From: Malus domestica
Lineage: Eukaryota > Streptophyta > Magnoliopsida > Rosales > Rosaceae
Assembly (NCBI RefSeq): GCF_042453785.1
Contig: NC_091671.1
Location: 41,062,501 to 41,126,500, forward strand
Direction: 5' to 3'
DNA length: 64,000 nucleotides
This document shows, one piece after another, positions 31,178 through 40,710 of the stretch; within the stretch, counting starts at the first letter, position 1, and each line of letters begins with the position of its first letter. The position numbers and the translations under genes are program-made. A model generated the notes under the pieces. The model searched no databases. It saw nothing but the letters and a program-made list of their open reading frames with translations, and had not been told where the DNA came from.

Positions 31178-31535
31178 TGTTTATACCATATTTAGGGCCT
31201 CCGTATTTAGATCTCGTACAAATACTCAGGGGACTTAAATGTAATTATGTAATAAAGGAAGGGGTAAATATGTAATAAGTGAGGAGCCCTTATTCTATAA
31301 AAGGACCCTTCACCCTCACAATTAGGGGAGGCCAATTCTTAGGCCTTCTCATCCTCTCTCCCATCCCCTCTCATATTCAGAGGTTCTCTCCTCACCTCTC
31401 AGAGAAATACATAATCAGTGTGGACGTAGCCCAAACCTTGGGGTGAACCACGATACATCTTGTGTTATTTACATTACTTGCAGATTCACGGTCGGATTTA
31501 CGTTGGTCCAAGACCTTCGGTTTTGTGCATTAACA
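31178..31535 (+). repeat. 5' LTR of element A
   Basis: 358 bp. A strong TATA box (CTATAAAAGGACCC) lies at about 31297-31310, followed by a pyrimidine-rich stretch and CACAATTAGGGGAGGCC, a likely U3/R boundary. Confidence 0.88.
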
Positions 31536-31730
31536 TTTGGCGCCGTCTGTGGGAATCGACACGAAAAGCTGTGTCGGTTATCTCTTAATTTTTCATCTCA
31601 CCACCGTGACAACCTCACCACCGTCCACCATGGATCTGCAAAACCAAGAGACACACACACTCTCTCTCCCCCACCTTCTTTATTTCTTCTGTTGTTCAAC
31701 CAGCTCTCTCTCTACAATCCTGCATCAATC

Positions 31731-32288
31731 ATGGCTGCTTTACTGTATGTTGTGATCTTATTAGCCTTCACTGGCCACTCGAGTGCTACTTATTGCGTAT
31801 GCAAAGATGAAGTCGGTGATGCAACACTTTAAAAGGCACTGGACTATGCCTGTGGAGCTGGAGCTGATTGCAGTCCAATCAACCAAAACGGTGCATGTTA
31901 CCAACCCAACACCGTCAAAGATCACTGCAGTTATGCTGTCAACAGTTATTTCCAGAGGAAGGGTCAAACTGCGCAGAGTTGTGATTTTGCAGGTGCTGCT
32001 ACTCAGAGTCAAACTGCTCACAGTACTGCAAGTTCGACTTGTGTTTATCTTGCAAGTTCCAGTCAAGCAGGAACTGACACGCCAACCGCAGGCACACCAA
32101 CGGCACACCCACCACCCCAACCACGGGCACAACTCCAACCATGGGCACACCAACCACCGGCATCGGCATCACAACTCCAGGCTCTCCAGCATCAGTGTTT
32201 GGAATAAGCTCTATCGGGAATGGCACTGGAATAGACAATAATGGCGGCACGGCTACCTTGGGAGTGGCATTGGAATAGGCAATAATGT
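31731..32288 (+). pseudogene. Captured plasmodesmata callose-binding (X8/CBM43) protein copy
   Basis: Starts MAALLYVVILLAFTGHSSA, a signal peptide, then an X8 domain: [54 protein letters not shown] and [14 protein letters not shown], with the family's conserved cysteines. A TAA at 31830-31832 replaces the expected Gln codon before KALDY. Further on a frameshift moves the Thr/Pro/Gly-rich spacer ([20 protein letters not shown]) into another frame, and the C-terminal GPI-type tail is missing. Functional relatives bind callose at plasmodesmata; this copy cannot encode the full protein. No intron interrupts it, which would fit capture from mRNA. It lies in sense with element A, about 200 bp after the primer-binding site. 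Confidence 0.88.
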
Positions 32289-32489
32289 GGCATTTAAGTT
32301 ATGGAGTTTGTAAAAAACGACGTCGTCTCCAGCCAATAATGTGGCACTGTACAATCACTATCTCTGTTCACCAACCTCAAACGACGCCGTCTCAGGCCGG
32401 GCAGAACGGGGCTGTCAGCGTAAAAAACACACCGGCCAGGTCATCGAACCCTAGCCCGTGACCGAGCCCCTACCCACACGGTGTATCGG

Positions 32490-32871
32490 TTAGACCGTTG
32501 CCCGATGGAGTGTCGCCGTCTCCGACGAGGTCGTCGACTCCGGGTAGGTTTTCATGTGGAAGTTCGCGCCTCTGTTTCTGGCGAAGCACATAAAGGCGTC
32601 GCTAGTGAAACGTTTTAGGAAGTCGAAGGAGAGTTTGATTTCGGAGGAGGGTGGGGCAGAGCTGGAGTAGTCGCTAGACAAAAGTTTCAGGTACTGGAAG
32701 AATTTCAGAGCCAAGTACAAGCTCGGGAAAGAGGCAAAGCGAGGGCATTTTGGTCATACTTGCTCTGGTAGGGGAAAAAATGGTGAGCTCAAGGACTAGG
32801 CTGTGGCTGTTAAGATAATTTCAAAAGCCAAGATGACGATAGCTATATCGATTGAAGATGTTCATCAAGAG
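32490..32871 (+). pseudogene. Captured CDPK-related kinase (CRK) N-terminal fragment
   Basis: One frame from about 32560 reads LAKHIKASLVKRF, SLDKSFRYWKNFRAKYKLGK, then RGHFGHTCSGRGKNGELKD and AVAVKIISKAKM, then IAISIEDVHQE. This is the variable N-terminus and first kinase subdomains (glycine loop GHFG, VAVK lysine) of plant CDPK-related kinases. In-frame TAG stops at 32668-32670 and 32797-32799, a frameshift near 32555, and a damaged glycine loop (GKEAKRG) show it is a pseudogene. Homology stops at about 32871; the catalytic loop and EF-hand region are absent. It is in sense with element A. Confidence 0.85.
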
Positions 32872-33470
32872 ACGCCAATAATGTTTCCTACACACTGCAT
32901 CTCACCGTCTTTAGTCAGCTGCCCTCCGCCCCTCTATCTTCATCTTGCGACTGAGTTCCACTGCCCCTTCGTTTTCTTCCCAAGTATCCGCCACCAGAAG
33001 TCACTCTGTTTCACCGTTTTCTGCATTCCTCTCTCTAATCTCCCTTTATTGCGCGAGTATGGATCCTGCAAAGGTGTTAGAAATTCTCTACACTTTTCCG
33101 GTGGAGGACCGGGTAAAGAAACTGAAAGACGTAGCTCACGATACTGATGGCGTATTGCATCAAAGACATGGCTCCACAACATGCAGGGAAACCAGGAAGA
33201 AGATAAGTTCCTATTATCAATTCTATTTTTTTCCTTTTGTCTGCCATCTGCCAAAAGAAAAAGAATGAGCAGGATAATACCACCGACAACGAAAATGGTG
33301 AGAAAGTACTCGAGAAGGTCGACCCCATACTCAAAGCAATCAGAGACGCAGGGGAAAGAGAAAAGAAAAAAAGTAAAAGAGAAAGGTGCGGTGAAAAAAG
33401 GGATCGACAAAAGGCAAAAGAGGGAGGAGCAAGCTGTCACCAATGAGTTCTATTAGAGCGGGGATGTCAA
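32872..33470 (+). other. Unidentified, probably captured leader and N-terminal fragment
   Basis: A pyrimidine-rich stretch resembling a plant 5' untranslated leader precedes ATG 33059, which opens MDPAKVLEILYTFPVEDRVK and KLKDVAHDTDGVLHQRHG before losing coherence. A Lys/Glu-rich segment follows to about 33470. I do not recognise the source gene. Context (adjacent captured fragments, sense orientation) suggests a third capture. Confidence 0.4.
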
Positions 33471-33740
33471 GAAAAGCAGAAAGAAAAATAGAAAGTAAAA
33501 CCAGAAAGCAAAAGGGAGGCACATGGGGACACTGCAAAAGCAAGGAATAAACACCCCGCCAGAATGAAGTGATTTACTTTCCTTACTTTAAATGATATAA
33601 TTTATTTTTCTTATCTTTCGGAGACATCTGTATAAACCCCATTAGAGGTTAAAAAAAAATGGCAAGCCCAAAATAATGGGCTGCAATGTTGTGTAGAGTG
33701 CGAATGCCCATATGCCTAAAAGAGCCAGGCCCTCTATTAT

Positions 33741-34140
33741 CACCAACCAAGTGATTAAAAGTACGCCCAGTACTCCAAAATTATTAGGCAACCCGCCGTT
33801 ATTACCACCAACCAGGTGATCAAAAGTATGCCCAGTACTCCAAAATTATTCGGCAACCTGCCGCTATTACCACCAACCAGGTGATGAAATGTACAACCCG
33901 TACTCCAATATCATTTGGCAACTAGCCATTCATTCCACCAACCAGGTGATGAAATGTACAACCCATACTCTAATATCATTTGGCAACTAGCCATTCATTC
34001 CACCAACCAGGTGATGAAATGTACAACCCATACTCTAATATCATTTGGCAACTAGCCATTCATGCCACCAACCAGGTGATGAAATGTACAACCCGTACTC
34101 TCATTTATGCCACCAACCAGGTGATTAAAAGTACGCCCAG
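33741..34140 (+). repeat. ~65-bp tandem repeats in element A
   Basis: About six units start CACCAACCAGGTGAT and contain GTAC..CCAGTACTCCAA and GGCAAC; starts at 33741, 33807, 33871 and 33936 give a 64-66 bp period. The same array occurs inverted in element B at about 37865-38270. Confidence 0.85.
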
Positions 34141-34149
34141 TACTCCAAA

Positions 34150-34520
34150 TTATACATGAGCATTACTCATGTCATTCATATATAAACATTCATGAGCATC
34201 ACTCATGACAATCATACATAAACATTCATGACCATCATTCATGTTAACATTCATGAGCATCACTCATGTTAACATTCATGAGCATCACTCATGACAACAT
34301 CCATGAGCATCACTCATGCCAATCAATATAAACATTCATAAGCATCACTCATGTCAATCAGCTTCAAAAGCTTCATTTACAAAAGCTCTAGCTTCAAAAG
34401 CCTCATTTACAGAGCTCTAGCTTCAAAAGCTTCATTTACAAAGCTCTAGCTTCAAAAGCTTCATTTACAGAGCTCCAGCTTTAAAGCTTCACTTACAAAG
34501 CTTTACCTACAAAGCTTCAA
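34150..34520 (+). repeat. Two short tandem arrays in element A
   Basis: The first (34150-34360) repeats CATGAGCATCACTCATG in 24-36 bp units. The second (34360-34520) repeats GCTCTAGCTTCAAAAGCTTC plus ATTTACA in about 29-bp units. Both recur in inverted order in element B (37600-37865). Confidence 0.8.
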
Positions 34521-34689
34521 TGCAGGGTATACAAATACCACCTTCGAACAACCGCCAATTCAGCCCATACATGGATTCAATTTGAAGTCTCCAGCCAACA
34601 TACTCTATTGACCGAAGACTTGGGGGACTACACTATACACCATATATTGGGCCTCAACTGGGCATGGGCCTTATGAAAAATACTTGGGG

Positions 34690-35110
34690 GACTTAGCCCA
34701 TTATTTATGTACTGAGGAGCGAGCCCTTATTCTATAAAATGGACTCATTCACTTTCATTAGAGAACACCCATCACTTATGTATTGAGAAACGAGCCCTTA
34801 TCCTATAAAAATGACTCTCTCACTTTCATTAGAGAACACCCATCAGTTATGTATTGAGGAACGAGCCCTTATCCTATAAAAGGGACCCCCTCACCATCAT
34901 TAGAGAACATCAACTCTAGCCCATTATTCATGTACTGAGGAGCGAGCCCTTATTTTATAAAAGGGACTCCCTCACTTTCATTAGAGAGCATCGCCGCCTA
35001 CTGAGCAACCACCTCGCCGCGAGCATCAACTCTAGCCCATCATTCATGTATTGAAGAGCGAACCCTTATTCTATAAAAATGGACTCCCTCACCTTCAACC
35101 GCTACAAGCC
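34690..35110 (+). repeat. Repeated LTR-promoter-like units before the 3' LTR of element A
   Basis: About five diverged units contain GAGCGAGCCCTTATTCTATA followed by AAAGGGACTCCCTCAC and a TCATTAGAGA motif. They resemble the LTR's own TATA region (GAGGAGCCCTTATTCTATAA at about 31285). Element B has the corresponding array at 36905-37440. Confidence 0.75.
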
Positions 35111-35310
35111 GAGCCAACCAAGGCAACATAAGCCACGAGTCGAGCAGCCTCGCAACATGTGCTATTTCTAGTTGAGCATCATTTCAGATTGAGCACCACC
35201 TCATATCAAGCATCAGTTCAAGGCAACATCTAGTTAATTCGGCCCACACATGGACTGAATTTCAAATCTCTAGCCAAAAAACTCTCTTGATTGAAGACTT
35301 GGGGGACTAC

Positions 35311-35669
35311 TGTTTATACCAAATTTAGGGCCTCCATATTTAGATCTCGTATAAATACTCAGGGGACTTAAATGTAATTATGTAATAAAGGAATGGGGCA
35401 AATATGTAATAAGTGAGGAGCACTTATTCTATAAAATGACCCCTCACCCTCACAATTAGGGGAGGCCAATTCTTAGGCCTTCTCATCCTCTCTCCCATCC
35501 CCTCTCATATTCAAAGGTTCTCTCCTCACCTCTCAGAGAAATACATAATCAGTGTGGATGTAGCCCAAACCTTGGGGTGAACCACGATACATCTTGTGTT
35601 ATTTACATTACTTGTAGATTCACGGTCGGATTTACGTTGTTCCAAGACCTCCGATTTTGTGCATCAACA
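35311..35669 (+). repeat. 3' LTR of element A
   Basis: 359 bp, very similar to the 5' LTR (for example AAATTTAGGGCCTCCATATT against ATATTTAGGGCCTCCGTATT), so insertion is fairly recent. Polypurine tract GGGGGACTAC is adjacent at left. Confidence 0.88.
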
Positions 35670-36349
35670 ACCTCAATAAGCTTCCTATGAGCTTAGAATT
35701 CCCTGAAAACAAGATACTTATGTGTGCATGAACAATGCACAATTCGAGGGTTAGGTTTCACGGGGTTTTCGAAGGTTTCAGGTTCTAAAACTTGTACCAA
35801 TGGACTCCTAAGGTCATAAAGAACATGAAAATGCTTACCTTGGTTTCGATCTGCAAGGTTTGAAATGGTTCCTGGATTGCCCATACGAAAATGCCAAGAT
35901 GAAGAGAGAGAGAAGTCCACGGGAGAGAGAGAGAAGGTATGTGTGTGGTCCAAAGCCACCAATCAAAAACCAATAATTCCCTTACTTCTAATTGGGTCCA
36001 AAAACTTAGGGAAAAATAATAAATGGGTCCAAATCCAACTTAAATCACACAATACAAATTAACGTCCAAGGGTATTCTTGTCAATTCACGCCGTTGATAA
36101 ATATAAATTTGGGACGGGTTGTGACAATTATGGTTTTTTTTTGTAGACTTTTAATATATTGTCTTTTGTTTGTCAACAACATTCAATTAGTTTAAGTTTT
36201 TTTTTTGCTTTTAATTTAAAAAAAAAAAGGAAGCTCTTTTCTTCTTTTATGTGAAATCGCCTAATCCAAATCTAATTAGTTCAATATACATTCTATTGAA
36301 CAAGTAGATACATTAACTTGTGAAAATTAAAAAAAAAAAGGGTAAAAAT

Positions 36350-36688
36350 TGTTGATGCACAAAACCTAAGGTCTTGGAATAACGTAAATCCGACCGTGAA
36401 TTTGCATGAAATGTAAAGAACACAAGATGTATCGTGGTTCACCCCAATGTTTGGGTTACGTCCACACTAATTATGTATTTATGAGAGTATTGAGGATGAG
36501 AGAGTTTCTAAGGGTTAAAGGGCCTAGGAATTGGCCTTCCCCTATTGTGAGGGTGATGAGTCCTTTTATAGAATAAGGGCTCCTCACTTATTACATATTT
36601 GCCCTTTCCTTTATTACATAATTACATTTAAGTCTCATGCGTATTTGTACAAGATCTAAATACGGAGGCCCTAAATATGGTATAAACA
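36350..36688 (-). repeat. 3' LTR of element B
   Basis: Begins TGTTGATGCACAAAACC and ends GGTATAAACA on the plus strand. The same length as its partner at 40367-40705. Confidence 0.88.
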
Positions 36689-36904
36689 GTAATCCCCCAA
36701 GTCTTCAGTCAAGAAAGTCTTTTGGCTGAAGACTTGCAATTCAGTCCATGTGTAGGTCGAAGTAACTAATTGTTGTCTTGAACTGATGCTTGATATGAGG
36801 CGGTGCTTAATCTAAAATGATATTCAACTAGAAGTAGCACATGCTGCGAGGTTGCTCGGCTCGTGGCTTATGTTGCCTTGGTTGGTTCGGCTTGTGGTGT
36901 CGAA

Positions 36905-38270
36905 GGTGAGGGAGTCCCTTTTATAGAATAAGGGCTCGCTCCTCAATACATAAATGATGGGTTAGGAGTGATGCTCACGGCGAGGCGATTGCTCAGCTGG
37001 CGGCGATGCTCTCTAATGATAGTGAGGGAGTCCCTTTTATAGAATAAAGGCTCGCTCTTCATTACATAAGTGATGGGTTAGGAGTGATGCTCGCGGCGAG
37101 GTGGTTGCTCAGCTGGCGGCGTTGCTCTCTAATGATGGTGAAGGAGTCCATTTTATAGAATAAAGGCTCGCTCCTTAATACATAAGTGATGGGCTAGGAG
37201 TGATGTTGGCGGCGAGGTGGTTGCTCAGCTGGCGGCGTTGCTCTCTAATGAAGGTGAGGGAGTCTTTTTTTATAAAATAAGAGCTCGCTCCTCAGTACAT
37301 AATTGATGGGCTAGGAGTGATGCTCGCGGTGAGGCGGTTGCTCAGATGGCGGCGTTGCTCTCTAATGAAGGTGAGGGAGTCCATTTTATAAAATAATCCC
37401 TTTTATAGAATAAAAGCTCGCTCCTTAATACATAAATAATGGGCTAAGTCCCCTAAGTATTTTTCATGAGGCCTAGTTGAGGCCCAATATATGGTACATA
37501 ATGTAGTCCCCTAAGTCTTCGGTCAATAGAGTATGTTGGCTGGAGACTTCAAATTGAATCCATGTATGGGCCGAAGTGGCGGTTGTTCAGATGTGGTATT
37601 TGTATACCCTGCACTAAAGCTTTGTAGGTGAAGCTTTGCAAGTGAAGCTTTGAAGCTAGAGCTCTGTAAATGACGTTTTTGAAGCTAGAGCTCTGTAAAT
37701 GAAGCTTTTGAAGCTGATTGACATAAGTGATGCTCATGGATGTAGTCATGAGTGATGCTCATGAATGTTGACATGAATAATGGTCATGAATGTTTATGTA
37801 TGATTGTCATTAGTGATGCTCATGAATGTTTATGTATGAATGACATGAGTAATGCTCATGTATAATTTGGAGTACTAGGCGTACTTTTGATCACCTGGTT
37901 GGTGGCATGAAGGAGAGTACGGGTTGTACATTTCATCACCTGGTTGGTGGTAATAGCAGCAGGTTGCCGAATAATTGTGGAGTACTGGGTGTACTTTTGA
38001 TCACCTGGTTGGTGGTAATAGCGGCAGGTTGCCGAATAATTGTGGAGTATTGGGCGTACTTTTGATCACCTAGTTAGTGGTAATAGCGGCAGGTTGCCGA
38101 ATAATTTTGGAGTACTGGGCGTACTTTTGATCACTTGGTTGATGGTAATAGCGGCGGGTTGCTGAATAATTGTGGAGTACTGGGCGTACTTTTGATCACC
38201 TGGTTGGTGGTAATATCTGCAGGTTGCCGAATAATTGCAGAGTACTGGGCGTACTTTTGATCGTCTGGTT
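36905..38270 (-). repeat. Tandem repeat arrays of element B
   Basis: In mirror order to element A: ~110-bp promoter-like units (36905-37440, with GGGAGTCCCTTTTATAGAAT and GCTCGCTCCTCA), GAAGCTTTGTAGGTGAAGC-type units (37610-37720), AGTGATGCTCATGAATG units (37720-37865), and ~64-bp units with ATCACCTGGTTGGTGGTAAT (37865-38270). Confidence 0.82.
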
Positions 38271-38477
38271 GGAGCTATTTTGGGCTTTTGGGCTTTCGCC
38301 TTCTACACAACATTCCAGCCCATTTATTTTGGGCTTTGCCCTCACATCATTCTGATGGGGTGTTTATTCCTTGCTTTTACTTTTCTCTTTTTGCTTTTGC
38401 TTTCTCTTTTGCTTTCTATTTTCCTGTTTTCCACTGCACCTCTTTGTCTCTTCTCTTCACTTGGTAGACAAAAGGAA

Positions 38478-38744
38478 TCATAATAATAGGCTTAGCTTTT
38501 GCTTTCTTCTTTTCTCTTTTCTTTTCTGCTTTTGTTTCTCCCACTCAATTTCTTTGACATCTTTTGCTTTCTGCTTTTGTTGCCCACCCCCTCTGAGTTG
38601 GGTTTGACTGGTTACTGCCGTTGAAGCTGAATCTGTGACTTCTTTTTCTAAAGTGGCATTGGATTCGCCAACTTTAGCATCCTCGTGACTCTCGGGGTTT
38701 TCAAAAGTAAAGCCTCCCTTTAGCCAGTGCAGAACAAACGCCAC
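38478..38744 (-). other. Unassigned segment of element B
   Basis: A minus-strand frame reads GGFTFENPESHEDAKVGESN then an acidic and Lys-rich continuation. It could be another captured fragment, but I cannot name a source. Next to it (38745-38870) the motif AACGCCACTGTTGA recurs three times. Confidence 0.3.
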
Positions 38745-39038
38745 TGTTGACTGTGATCATTCCTAAAATTGATTGAAAACTCAGAGGGTACGCACACTGA
38801 ACTTTGAGTCATTGCAGAATAAACGCCACTGTTGATTGTGAACAAACACCACTGTTGAAAACTCCGACCGTGAAGCTCATTGTTGGTGTGGCCTGTAGCG
38901 GCGATGTGGAAGTGGACAGCCTCGAGGAGGCGGAGGGCAAGAGGTAAGGGACAATGGTGTGGAGAGAGAGAGATAGAGATCTCGATCTTGACGAATGCTG
39001 AGAGACCTCGCCCTTTTAGGCCCTGTGCTGCTCCAAAC

Positions 39039-39113
39039 CTTTTGTATGAATTCCTCGTTGACGACGGCAGAGATGTCAAGCAGTGGGTTGCCCGTCCCCA
39101 ACAGAATCCTTCA
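39039..39113 (-). pseudogene. Captured adenosine kinase N-terminal fragment
   Basis: Twenty-five codons read ILLGTGNPLLDISAVVNEEF then IQK, matching the highly conserved start of plant adenosine kinase (ILLGMGNPLLDISAVV-type). Nothing of the sugar- or ATP-binding core follows; the frame runs into unrelated sequence. It is in sense with element B and next to the WRKY fragment. Confidence 0.78.
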
Positions 39114-39144
39114 GACACCATCATAGCAAAAAAGAGCTACAACC

Positions 39145-39666
39145 TTTCTTTGACTTGTCTTCATGATCTCCATCATACCCTAATTTTGGCTGTTTATCTT
39201 TCTTTCTCTTATGATATGAATCTTCATCTAAAACTTGATCATCACCAGCAGCACCAGCAGCTTCATTAGATGAAGAAAATATTGAAGAATAATTTGGTGT
39301 GAAATGGTTTTTAGTGGTACTAGTAGTCCCTACTGAGTGATCTCGTACACCTGCTGCTGCCGGCTGCTTGTTTGAGTTGTTATCATGATCCAACGGTGGA
39401 GAAATGACTTCGAATGAAGAACAAGACATGTCGAAAGCTTTCAAGAGGGTGTTGTAGTCCAATGATCCGTGTAGGCAGTCGATGAAGCTCATGAACGGAT
39501 TATGATGATCAGATTCAAACCCATTTAGGGTTTGTGGGTCATCTGGTTGGTTTTGGTATGTGGAGGAATTGCCATAGTTGAAGAATGGAAAGCTTGACTT
39601 GTTGATCTCATGGTGGTTGTAGTCGAAAGGATCGTACTGGTAAGGATTTTTCCTCTCATTTGACAT
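39145..39666 (-). pseudogene. Captured WRKY transcription factor N-terminal fragment (group IIc, WRKY28/71-like)
   Basis: From ATG 39666 the frame reads MSNERKNPYQYDPFDYNHHE, SFIDCLHGSLDYNTLLKAFD, MSCSSFEVISPPLDHDNNSN and later SSSNEAAGAAGD, KKDKQPK and EDKSKK. This is the N-terminal region of the WRKY8/28/71 subgroup, whose full proteins continue into the WRKYGQK zinc-finger domain. Here homology ends right after EDKSKK and a short tail leads to a stop at 39121-39123, so the DNA-binding domain is absent. The frame is otherwise open over 170 codons, so capture may be recent or the fragment under weak constraint. Upstream sequence resembles the source 5' leader. Confidence 0.85.
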
Positions 39667-39754
39667 GGTAGAAGAAGAAGCAGCAGAAGAAAAAGCTTTT
39701 GAGAGATGCGAGAGAGATAGAGATCTCGATTTTGACGAATGCTCAGCACCGATT

Positions 39755-39859
39755 GTTAAGGAGTTCGACAAAGACTGGGTGGTTCAAGAGCTCAGCGCTG
39801 ACCACGAACTGCTCAATCTCGTCGCCGACGTAGATCGGGACGTGGCCCTCAGGGACCAT
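39755..39859 (-). pseudogene. Captured SAUR auxin-responsive gene fragment
   Basis: The minus strand reads MVPEGHVPIYVGDEIEQFVV followed by SAELLNHPVFVELLN, the core of the SAUR domain. The normal N-terminus and the following EYGF/CxxxxF half are missing; a stop comes three codons later. It is in sense with element B, upstream of the WRKY fragment. Confidence 0.85.
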
Positions 39860-40366
39860 CGGTTCTCTAGCGGGGGATCTTCGGCACCGGTGCTTCACAC
39901 CGTATTTGGCCCAATTGGCATGTGAAAGCAGGGCAGCCTCTCGTCGCCGACAACCTCTTAGTTGAGTCCATAAAGGAGGATGATGAATCCTCTAGTGTTT
40001 TGGGAAGATGTAAACACAGATTCAGCCCTAGTGCCTTTTCCTTCATTTGCTCCTTATTTTTTAAAAAATCCCAGATCTCAAAGTGCTTAAATTAAGCTTT
40101 TTTTTTCTTTCTTCTCTCCAGTTGGGAGAGAGTTCTTGGAATGAGAGAAAGATAGTGGGCTTTAACAAAAGTTGAAATGGAACACGAAAATCGAGGGAGA
40201 GAAAGAGAGATGTGTTTAATGGAGGTGTTTAGACGGAAAACTAGAAGAAACTGGGGTTGAATTGTATTTGATCGTACTAGAAGTTGTTTGCAGATTCATG
40301 ATAGAGGTGAAAAATGAAAGAGAACCGACATAACTTTTCGTATCGTTTCCCACAGACGGCGCCAAA

Positions 40367-40705
40367 TGTTGATGCACAAAACCGGAGGTCTTGGAACAAC
40401 GTAAATCCGACCGTGAATCTGCATGAAATGTAAAGAACACAAGATGTATCGTGGTTCACCCCAAGGTTTGGGCTACGTCCACACTGATTATGTATTTCTG
40501 AGAGTATTGAGGATGAGAGAGTTTCTGAGGGTTAGAGGGCCTAGGAATTGGCCTCCCTCTATTGTGAGGGTGATGAGTCCTTTTATAGAATAAGGGCTCC
40601 TCACTTATTACATATTTGCCCCTTCCTTTATTACATAATTACATTTAAGTCCCCTGCGTATTTGTATGAGATCTAAATACGGAGACCCTGAATATGGTGT
40701 AAACA
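40367..40705 (-). repeat. 5' LTR of element B
   Basis: 339 bp, starts TGTTGATGCACAAAACCGG and ends GTGTAAACA on the plus strand. The inverted TATA region (CCTTTTATAGAATAAGGGC) is at about 40577-40597. The tRNA primer-binding site is adjacent at left. Confidence 0.88.
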
Positions 40706-40710
40706 AAAAT

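Follow-up and report, generated by a model that had tools for sequence, protein, structure and literature searches.

The 64,000-nucleotide stretch of apple (Malus domestica) DNA analysed here (hereafter the window; contig NC_091671.1, positions 41,062,501 to 41,126,500 of the forward strand) contains, at positions 36350-40705 and with the minus strand as its sense strand, a long terminal repeat (LTR) retrotransposon copy that we call element B. It is a non-autonomous element, with direct LTRs, a target-site duplication (TSD), a primer site and a polypurine tract, and has no recognisable gag or pol. Between its LTRs lie, all in sense orientation and in this order, fragments of a SAUR gene, a WRKY gene and an adenosine kinase (ADK) gene. 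Element B belongs to a high-copy family whose internal slot differs between copies and which, judging from a small sample of copies with LTRs close to those of element B, seems to collect fragments of host mRNAs habitually. We propose that such fragments were, in all likelihood, captured as sense chains in a slot between a conserved leader and tail through template switching by reverse transcriptase, and were later multiplied and reshuffled. On the broader claim that this family of thousands of copies is a standing sampler of mRNAs, with no fixed slot content and with nearly every member bearing its own sense chain of unrelated host exons, so that the whole amounts to a mobile shuffled library of spliced transcripts, we regard the chances as evenly balanced.

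Self-comparison places the 5' LTR (in element sense) at 40367-40705 and the 3' LTR at 36350-36688. The two are 339 bp long, have TG..CA ends and differ at 20 of 339 aligned sites (Kimura two-parameter distance, K2P, 0.062), and the element is bounded by the duplication AAAAT (36345-36349 and 40706-40710). Directly after the 5' LTR comes a conserved leader (40281-40366) with the primer-binding-site-like TTTGGCGCCGTCTGTGGG, and directly before the 3' LTR the polypurine-tract-like GACTTGGGGGATTAC (36689-36703); both are recognisable in all 11 relatives compared. Pfam scanning covered the 31 frames on either strand that run for 50 codons or more without a stop, with one frame straddling the element edge left out. 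It yielded no gag or pol match, and a single frame matched at E <= 0.01, namely Auxin_inducible (SAUR; E = 1.4e-12). These features bear out the earlier note, made from the sequence alone, in its reading of the locus as an LTR element lacking gag and pol.

The sources of the fragments were traced by BLAST against fetched loci and by reading of the host genes (contig numbers are written here as chr). The SAUR core fragment (39900-39749) is 87% identical to a complete, Pfam-confirmed SAUR gene on chr5. The WRKY fragment (39724-39142) comprises 5' untranslated region (UTR) and exon 1, and is 95% identical to a gene on chr17 and 86% to its paralogue on chr9. Both genes encode WRKYGQK downstream of the captured part, and the chr17 gene matches the Pfam WRKY model; its WRKY domain lies in the next exon, which is absent from element B, as the earlier note had surmised in describing a fragment without the DNA-binding domain. 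The ADK fragment (approximately 39138-39039) comprises the end of the 5'UTR and exon 1, and is 83-88% identical to exon 1 of four host genes. The exon-1 peptide of one of these matches solved adenosine kinases, and the coding part in element B has one base fewer than the host genes. Host sources and Pfam thus agree with the identities, orientation and order given in the earlier note; its coordinates were a little short, as the WRKY piece includes 5'UTR and runs to the end of exon 1 and the ADK piece includes the end of the 5'UTR.

The WRKY exon in element B ends with AAAGG, exactly where the GTAGGT donor begins in the host gene, and next to it come the bases that directly follow TTTCTTAAG in the 5'UTR of ADK. 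The ADK piece ends at most 1 nt from the exon end both in element B and in a second context, the L022 element. A 37-bp direct repeat flanks the WRKY-ADK block, with one copy behind SAUR (39710-39746), whose end overlaps the WRKY 5'UTR match, and the other downstream of ADK (38966-39002). The end of this repeat resembles a stretch of the WRKY 5'UTR (ATCTCTATCTCTCTC versus ATCCCCATCTCTCTC); a source for the repeat itself was sought and not found.

Searching the genome (651,096,769 bases in 19 contigs) with 39030-39900 recovered 21 matches, including the locus of element B itself. The others are the whole block on chr17 (90%), parts of it on chr10 and chr2, the two WRKY genes, and places with SAUR or ADK only. 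The chr17 block sits between its own LTRs with an exact TSD (AGCAT), the chr10 block is flanked by GAAGA/GAAGG, and the chr2 block adjoins the LTR of another member, with no TSD seen. As all four block copies have the identical WRKY-ADK join, the chimera evidently arose a single time and was then multiplied, parts of it being lost later in some copies. The search for source loci and further copies suggested in the earlier note has located both, and an origin from decayed genes at this locus that predate the element is excluded by the same joins between LTRs on other chromosomes and by the intact source genes elsewhere. The chr17 sister copy (L009:5252-6094), itself nested inside another member, has SAUR and WRKY in one 281-codon stop-free frame.

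A search for the wider family with the LTR and leader of element B returned 4561 first-look candidates; scoring was applied to 40 of these and yielded 41 matches. Sixteen other copies were fetched by LTR and leader match alone; they come from the lower ranks of the 41 best matches and are not a random sample. Thirteen of them follow a common plan, namely LTR, leader, a slot of 1.35-2.36 kb, a 65-bp array, tail and LTR, from which L029, L035 and L040 deviate. With ends allowed to slide by three bases, 5-bp TSDs are exact in eight of the 13 (one of these being TTTTT), match at four of five bases at the expected ends in three, and are absent there in two. Elements of the family are 3.2-4.7 kb in size, and LTR K2P across copies spans 0.015-0.117, which points to insertions of widely different ages.

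The slots of these 13 copies were compared with Pfam using all stop-free frames of at least 60 amino acids at E <= 0.001; the three deviating copies, lacking the full plan, were left out of the count, though L040 later gave a Myb match. The 90 sense frames matched 14 Pfam families and the 94 antisense frames none. UDPG_MGDP_dh_N and the two Pyr_redox models derive from the same gene in L039, so that the 14 families represent about 12 genes, and BRX was seen in the pooled scan only and is assigned to no element. When the elements were scanned singly, 10 of the 13 had host-gene matches in sense: DIOX_N (L028), CASP above the Pfam cut-off together with pectinesterase below the curated cut-off (L030), vATP-synt_AC39 (L033), AMP-binding (L034), Trypsin_2 (L037), ribosomal L22e (L038), Pyr_redox (L039) and, below the curated cut-off, GAPDH (L031), Di19_C (L036) and UBA (L041). 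Frames from L027, L032 and L042 scanned in this way gave no Pfam match. Element A, a second family member in the window, and copies found through shared cargo carry pieces of CPSase, X8, peptide deformylase, DEAD (eIF4A-like), RCC1, prefoldin, ribosomal S10/S20 and GFO_IDH_MocA. Only 6-36% of each of the 13 slots is common to any of 22 others, and all 143 pieces of at least 50 bp common between the 23 slots are shared sense to sense. The earlier note had regarded the capture of several genes by one element as rare; since element B belongs to a high-copy family in which slot contents change between copies, and host-gene matches occur in 10 of the 13 members sampled (three of them below the cut-off), such cargo is not rare within this family.

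In two cases the captured region was seen to span an intron of the host gene, and in both the intron is removed exactly. A 97-bp intron of the chr17 eIF4A gene (GTTGGT to GGTCAG) is missing from the eIF4A piece of L020, whose sequence at this point is AAGGATCAG-ATCTACGAC, and the chr9 paralogue of the gene shows the same gap relative to the piece. Likewise, the pyridine nucleotide-disulphide oxidoreductase piece of L039, which we read as dihydrolipoyl dehydrogenase, joins CCCTCCAAG directly to GCGCTTC at the position of an intron of about 0.5 kb in the chr13 gene (GTCTCT to TCCAG), with the same gap relative to the chr16 paralogue. The sources of the CPSase cargo match it unbroken over about 1.19 kb, so that this cargo is uninformative about introns. 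Several cargo ends lie inside exons, as expected under template switching: both ends of the eIF4A piece, the 5' end of the L039 piece, the 3' end of CPSase and both ends of the intronless SAUR. The exact loss of both introns, together with the sense-only cargo, indicates that the cargo was copied from spliced mRNA.

What is observed directly, namely LTRs with TSDs, sense-only cargo, exact loss of both checked introns, cargo that varies by copy and multiplication of a block, is most readily explained by the following model. RNA of the element would be packaged with host mRNAs and RNAs of other elements in particles supplied by a helper element, and during minus-strand synthesis the reverse transcriptase would jump between templates, partly at short matching stretches. 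The resulting chimera would integrate as a normal copy with a target duplication, and later rounds would multiply it and reshuffle modules between copies. In the case of element B, the enzyme might have copied the tail, ADK and WRKY, jumped back at the 37-bp stretch to an element template and then moved to a SAUR-carrying one; the 37-bp duplication around the WRKY-ADK block would fit such a return to the element template.

Several points weigh against this model or its generality. Under plain template switching, the WRKY piece would not be expected to end precisely at a splice donor, nor the ADK piece to end, in two contexts, no more than 1 nt from its exon boundary. No helper element has been identified, a source for 38560-39038 was sought and not found, and the SAUR, WRKY and ADK fragments of element B itself cross no host intron. 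Moreover, the sample of copies is small and drawn from LTRs most like those of element B, and in three of the 10 elements with host-gene matches (L031, L036 and L041) all such matches lie below the Pfam cut-off.

The precise exon ends raise the possibility of splicing-assisted capture, as in retroviral gene transduction, wherein the first exon of a host gene would be joined from its natural donor to a cryptic acceptor in a transcript of the element, the 5' LTR being regained afterwards through template switching. The WRKY exon ending at its own donor and joined to the bases right after TTTCTTAAG, and the ADK exon end in element B and L022, are what such a route would leave, but the eIF4A, L039, CPSase and SAUR ends inside exons are not. 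Furthermore, when the ADK-CPSase join of L022 was checked for an origin by splicing, it fitted the known donor and an AG acceptor in neither of the source genes. We therefore consider this route unlikely as the general explanation, while splicing may have made the WRKY and ADK joins before reverse transcription. Capture at the DNA level, in which genomic pieces of genes would enter the element through ectopic repair or by insertion, could account for the intron-free fragments of element B taken alone; it is disfavoured because introns were lost exactly in L020 and L039 and because the cargo is sense-only (14 sense versus no antisense Pfam families), and we judge it very improbable. The carrier is also not a Pack-MULE or a Helitron, given the direct LTRs with a 5-bp TSD and the absence of introns in both relatives checked.

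It could further be asked whether truncated SAUR, WRKY or ADK peptides are themselves kept by selection as the purpose of the element, the earlier note having considered a truncated WRKY peptide conceivable. The WRKY frame is stop-free over 220 codons in element B, the chr17 copy joins SAUR and WRKY in its single long frame, and the ratio of nonsynonymous to synonymous substitution (dN/dS) between element B and the chr17 source is 0.43. However, the other three copies give 0.93, 0.99 and 2.28 against the same source, pairs among the four copies give 0.73, 0.77, 0.93, 0.96, 1.20 and 2.04 (the substitution counts per pair being small), the host paralogues on chr17 and chr9 give 0.27, and the L011 copy has two stops. 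The cargo, moreover, varies between members. The WRKY piece thus looks to be evolving about neutrally, as a passenger, and selection for such peptides appears the least credible of these alternatives. Template switching on spliced transcripts remains the reading we prefer. Synonymous divergence (dS) of the WRKY copies from their source is 0.02-0.08, against 0.17 between the host paralogues, indicating that the capture is younger than the duplication of the paralogues.

Capture of several genes by plant LTR elements is already known from a few cases. Maize Bs1, an LTR element that has transduced parts of three host genes (PMC13317346), resembles element B in having pieces of three genes between its LTRs; it is described as a single case, whereas the high-copy family of element B has different cargoes in different copies. 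The same source names abnormal template switching for Veju and BARE. The soybean terminal-repeat retrotransposon in miniature (TRIM) GmaRetroS15 is likewise small and non-autonomous and holds parts of three genes, including one without introns, and the accompanying survey reports gene fragments in 30 TRIM elements from 7 of 289 subfamilies (PMC4717578); in contrast to TRIM sizes of 1.2-1.4 kb, the present family measures 3.2-4.7 kb and changes its slot by copy. In pepper, intronless NLR copies lie inside mostly non-autonomous LTR elements (PMC5664825), which is similar in kind but concerns one gene class rather than strings of short pieces from unrelated genes. LTR elements with fragments of host genes are also recorded in surveys of other grasses: 425 such elements in maize, none with more than one captured gene in that maize-wide survey (PMC2774510), and fragments of 672 genes in rice and 1,343 in sorghum (PMC3726574).

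Among Rosaceae, pear and apple have non-coding large retrotransposon derivatives (LARDs) and TRIMs that are moved in trans (PMC4668562). LARDs share the want of gag and pol coding with the family of element B, but have a large conserved non-coding interior, usually above 4 kb, whereas here the leader and tail are conserved and the slot is variable. The TGTT/AACA Rosaceae subfamilies (PMC5659011) were considered and set aside, as their LTRs end in TG..TT or AA..CA rather than TG..CA. HODOR is a 9.7-kb apple element (PMC13334179, PMC6901071). No description of the present family was found in the literature within reach of the search, many subscription journals lying beyond it. If the pattern holds for most members, the route of gene capture, be it template switching, splicing or both, becomes testable from many joins with known sources, and these joins would also reveal the mRNAs that enter the particles and the frequency with which chimeras are transcribed. 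Additionally, some of these fragments may be listed as genes in annotations of the apple genome, and the cargo may give rise to small RNAs against the parent genes.

The remaining parts of element B, all on the minus strand, are a stretch upstream of SAUR (39901-40280) that is largely common to a SAUR-carrying element in L014, extra cargo of unrecognised origin (38560-39038) of which 38943-38856 is common to the L026 element, the 65-bp tandem array (37850-38342) and a tail of tandem copies of about 116 bp (36902-37387) common to family members. Element A (31178-35669, plus strand) lies 680 bp from element B in the opposite orientation, with the TSD ACCTC and an X8-domain fragment at 31833-32204 in its slot.

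Some other members show further peculiarities. In L022 (3336-4547, chr12) a 404-codon stop-free frame runs over a fragment of the CPSase large subunit directly behind ADK exon 1, and in L038 a 1.13-kb stretch matches five different sets of genome places in succession. In L040 (1656-3738, chr8) a capture-type 5' end with a Myb fragment lies beside LTR pieces in inverted orientation, another leader-like stretch and a frame matching Retrotrans_gag, possibly as the trace of a gag-bearing relative. Two members stand head to tail with abutting LTRs both near 6492 in L013 (chr2) and near 4086 in L031 (chr5). Finally, at least five further places (chr9, 16, 13, 3 and 1) match the RCC1-like stretch of L020 (3529-3651) at 91-93%, as if this module had been handed on among members.

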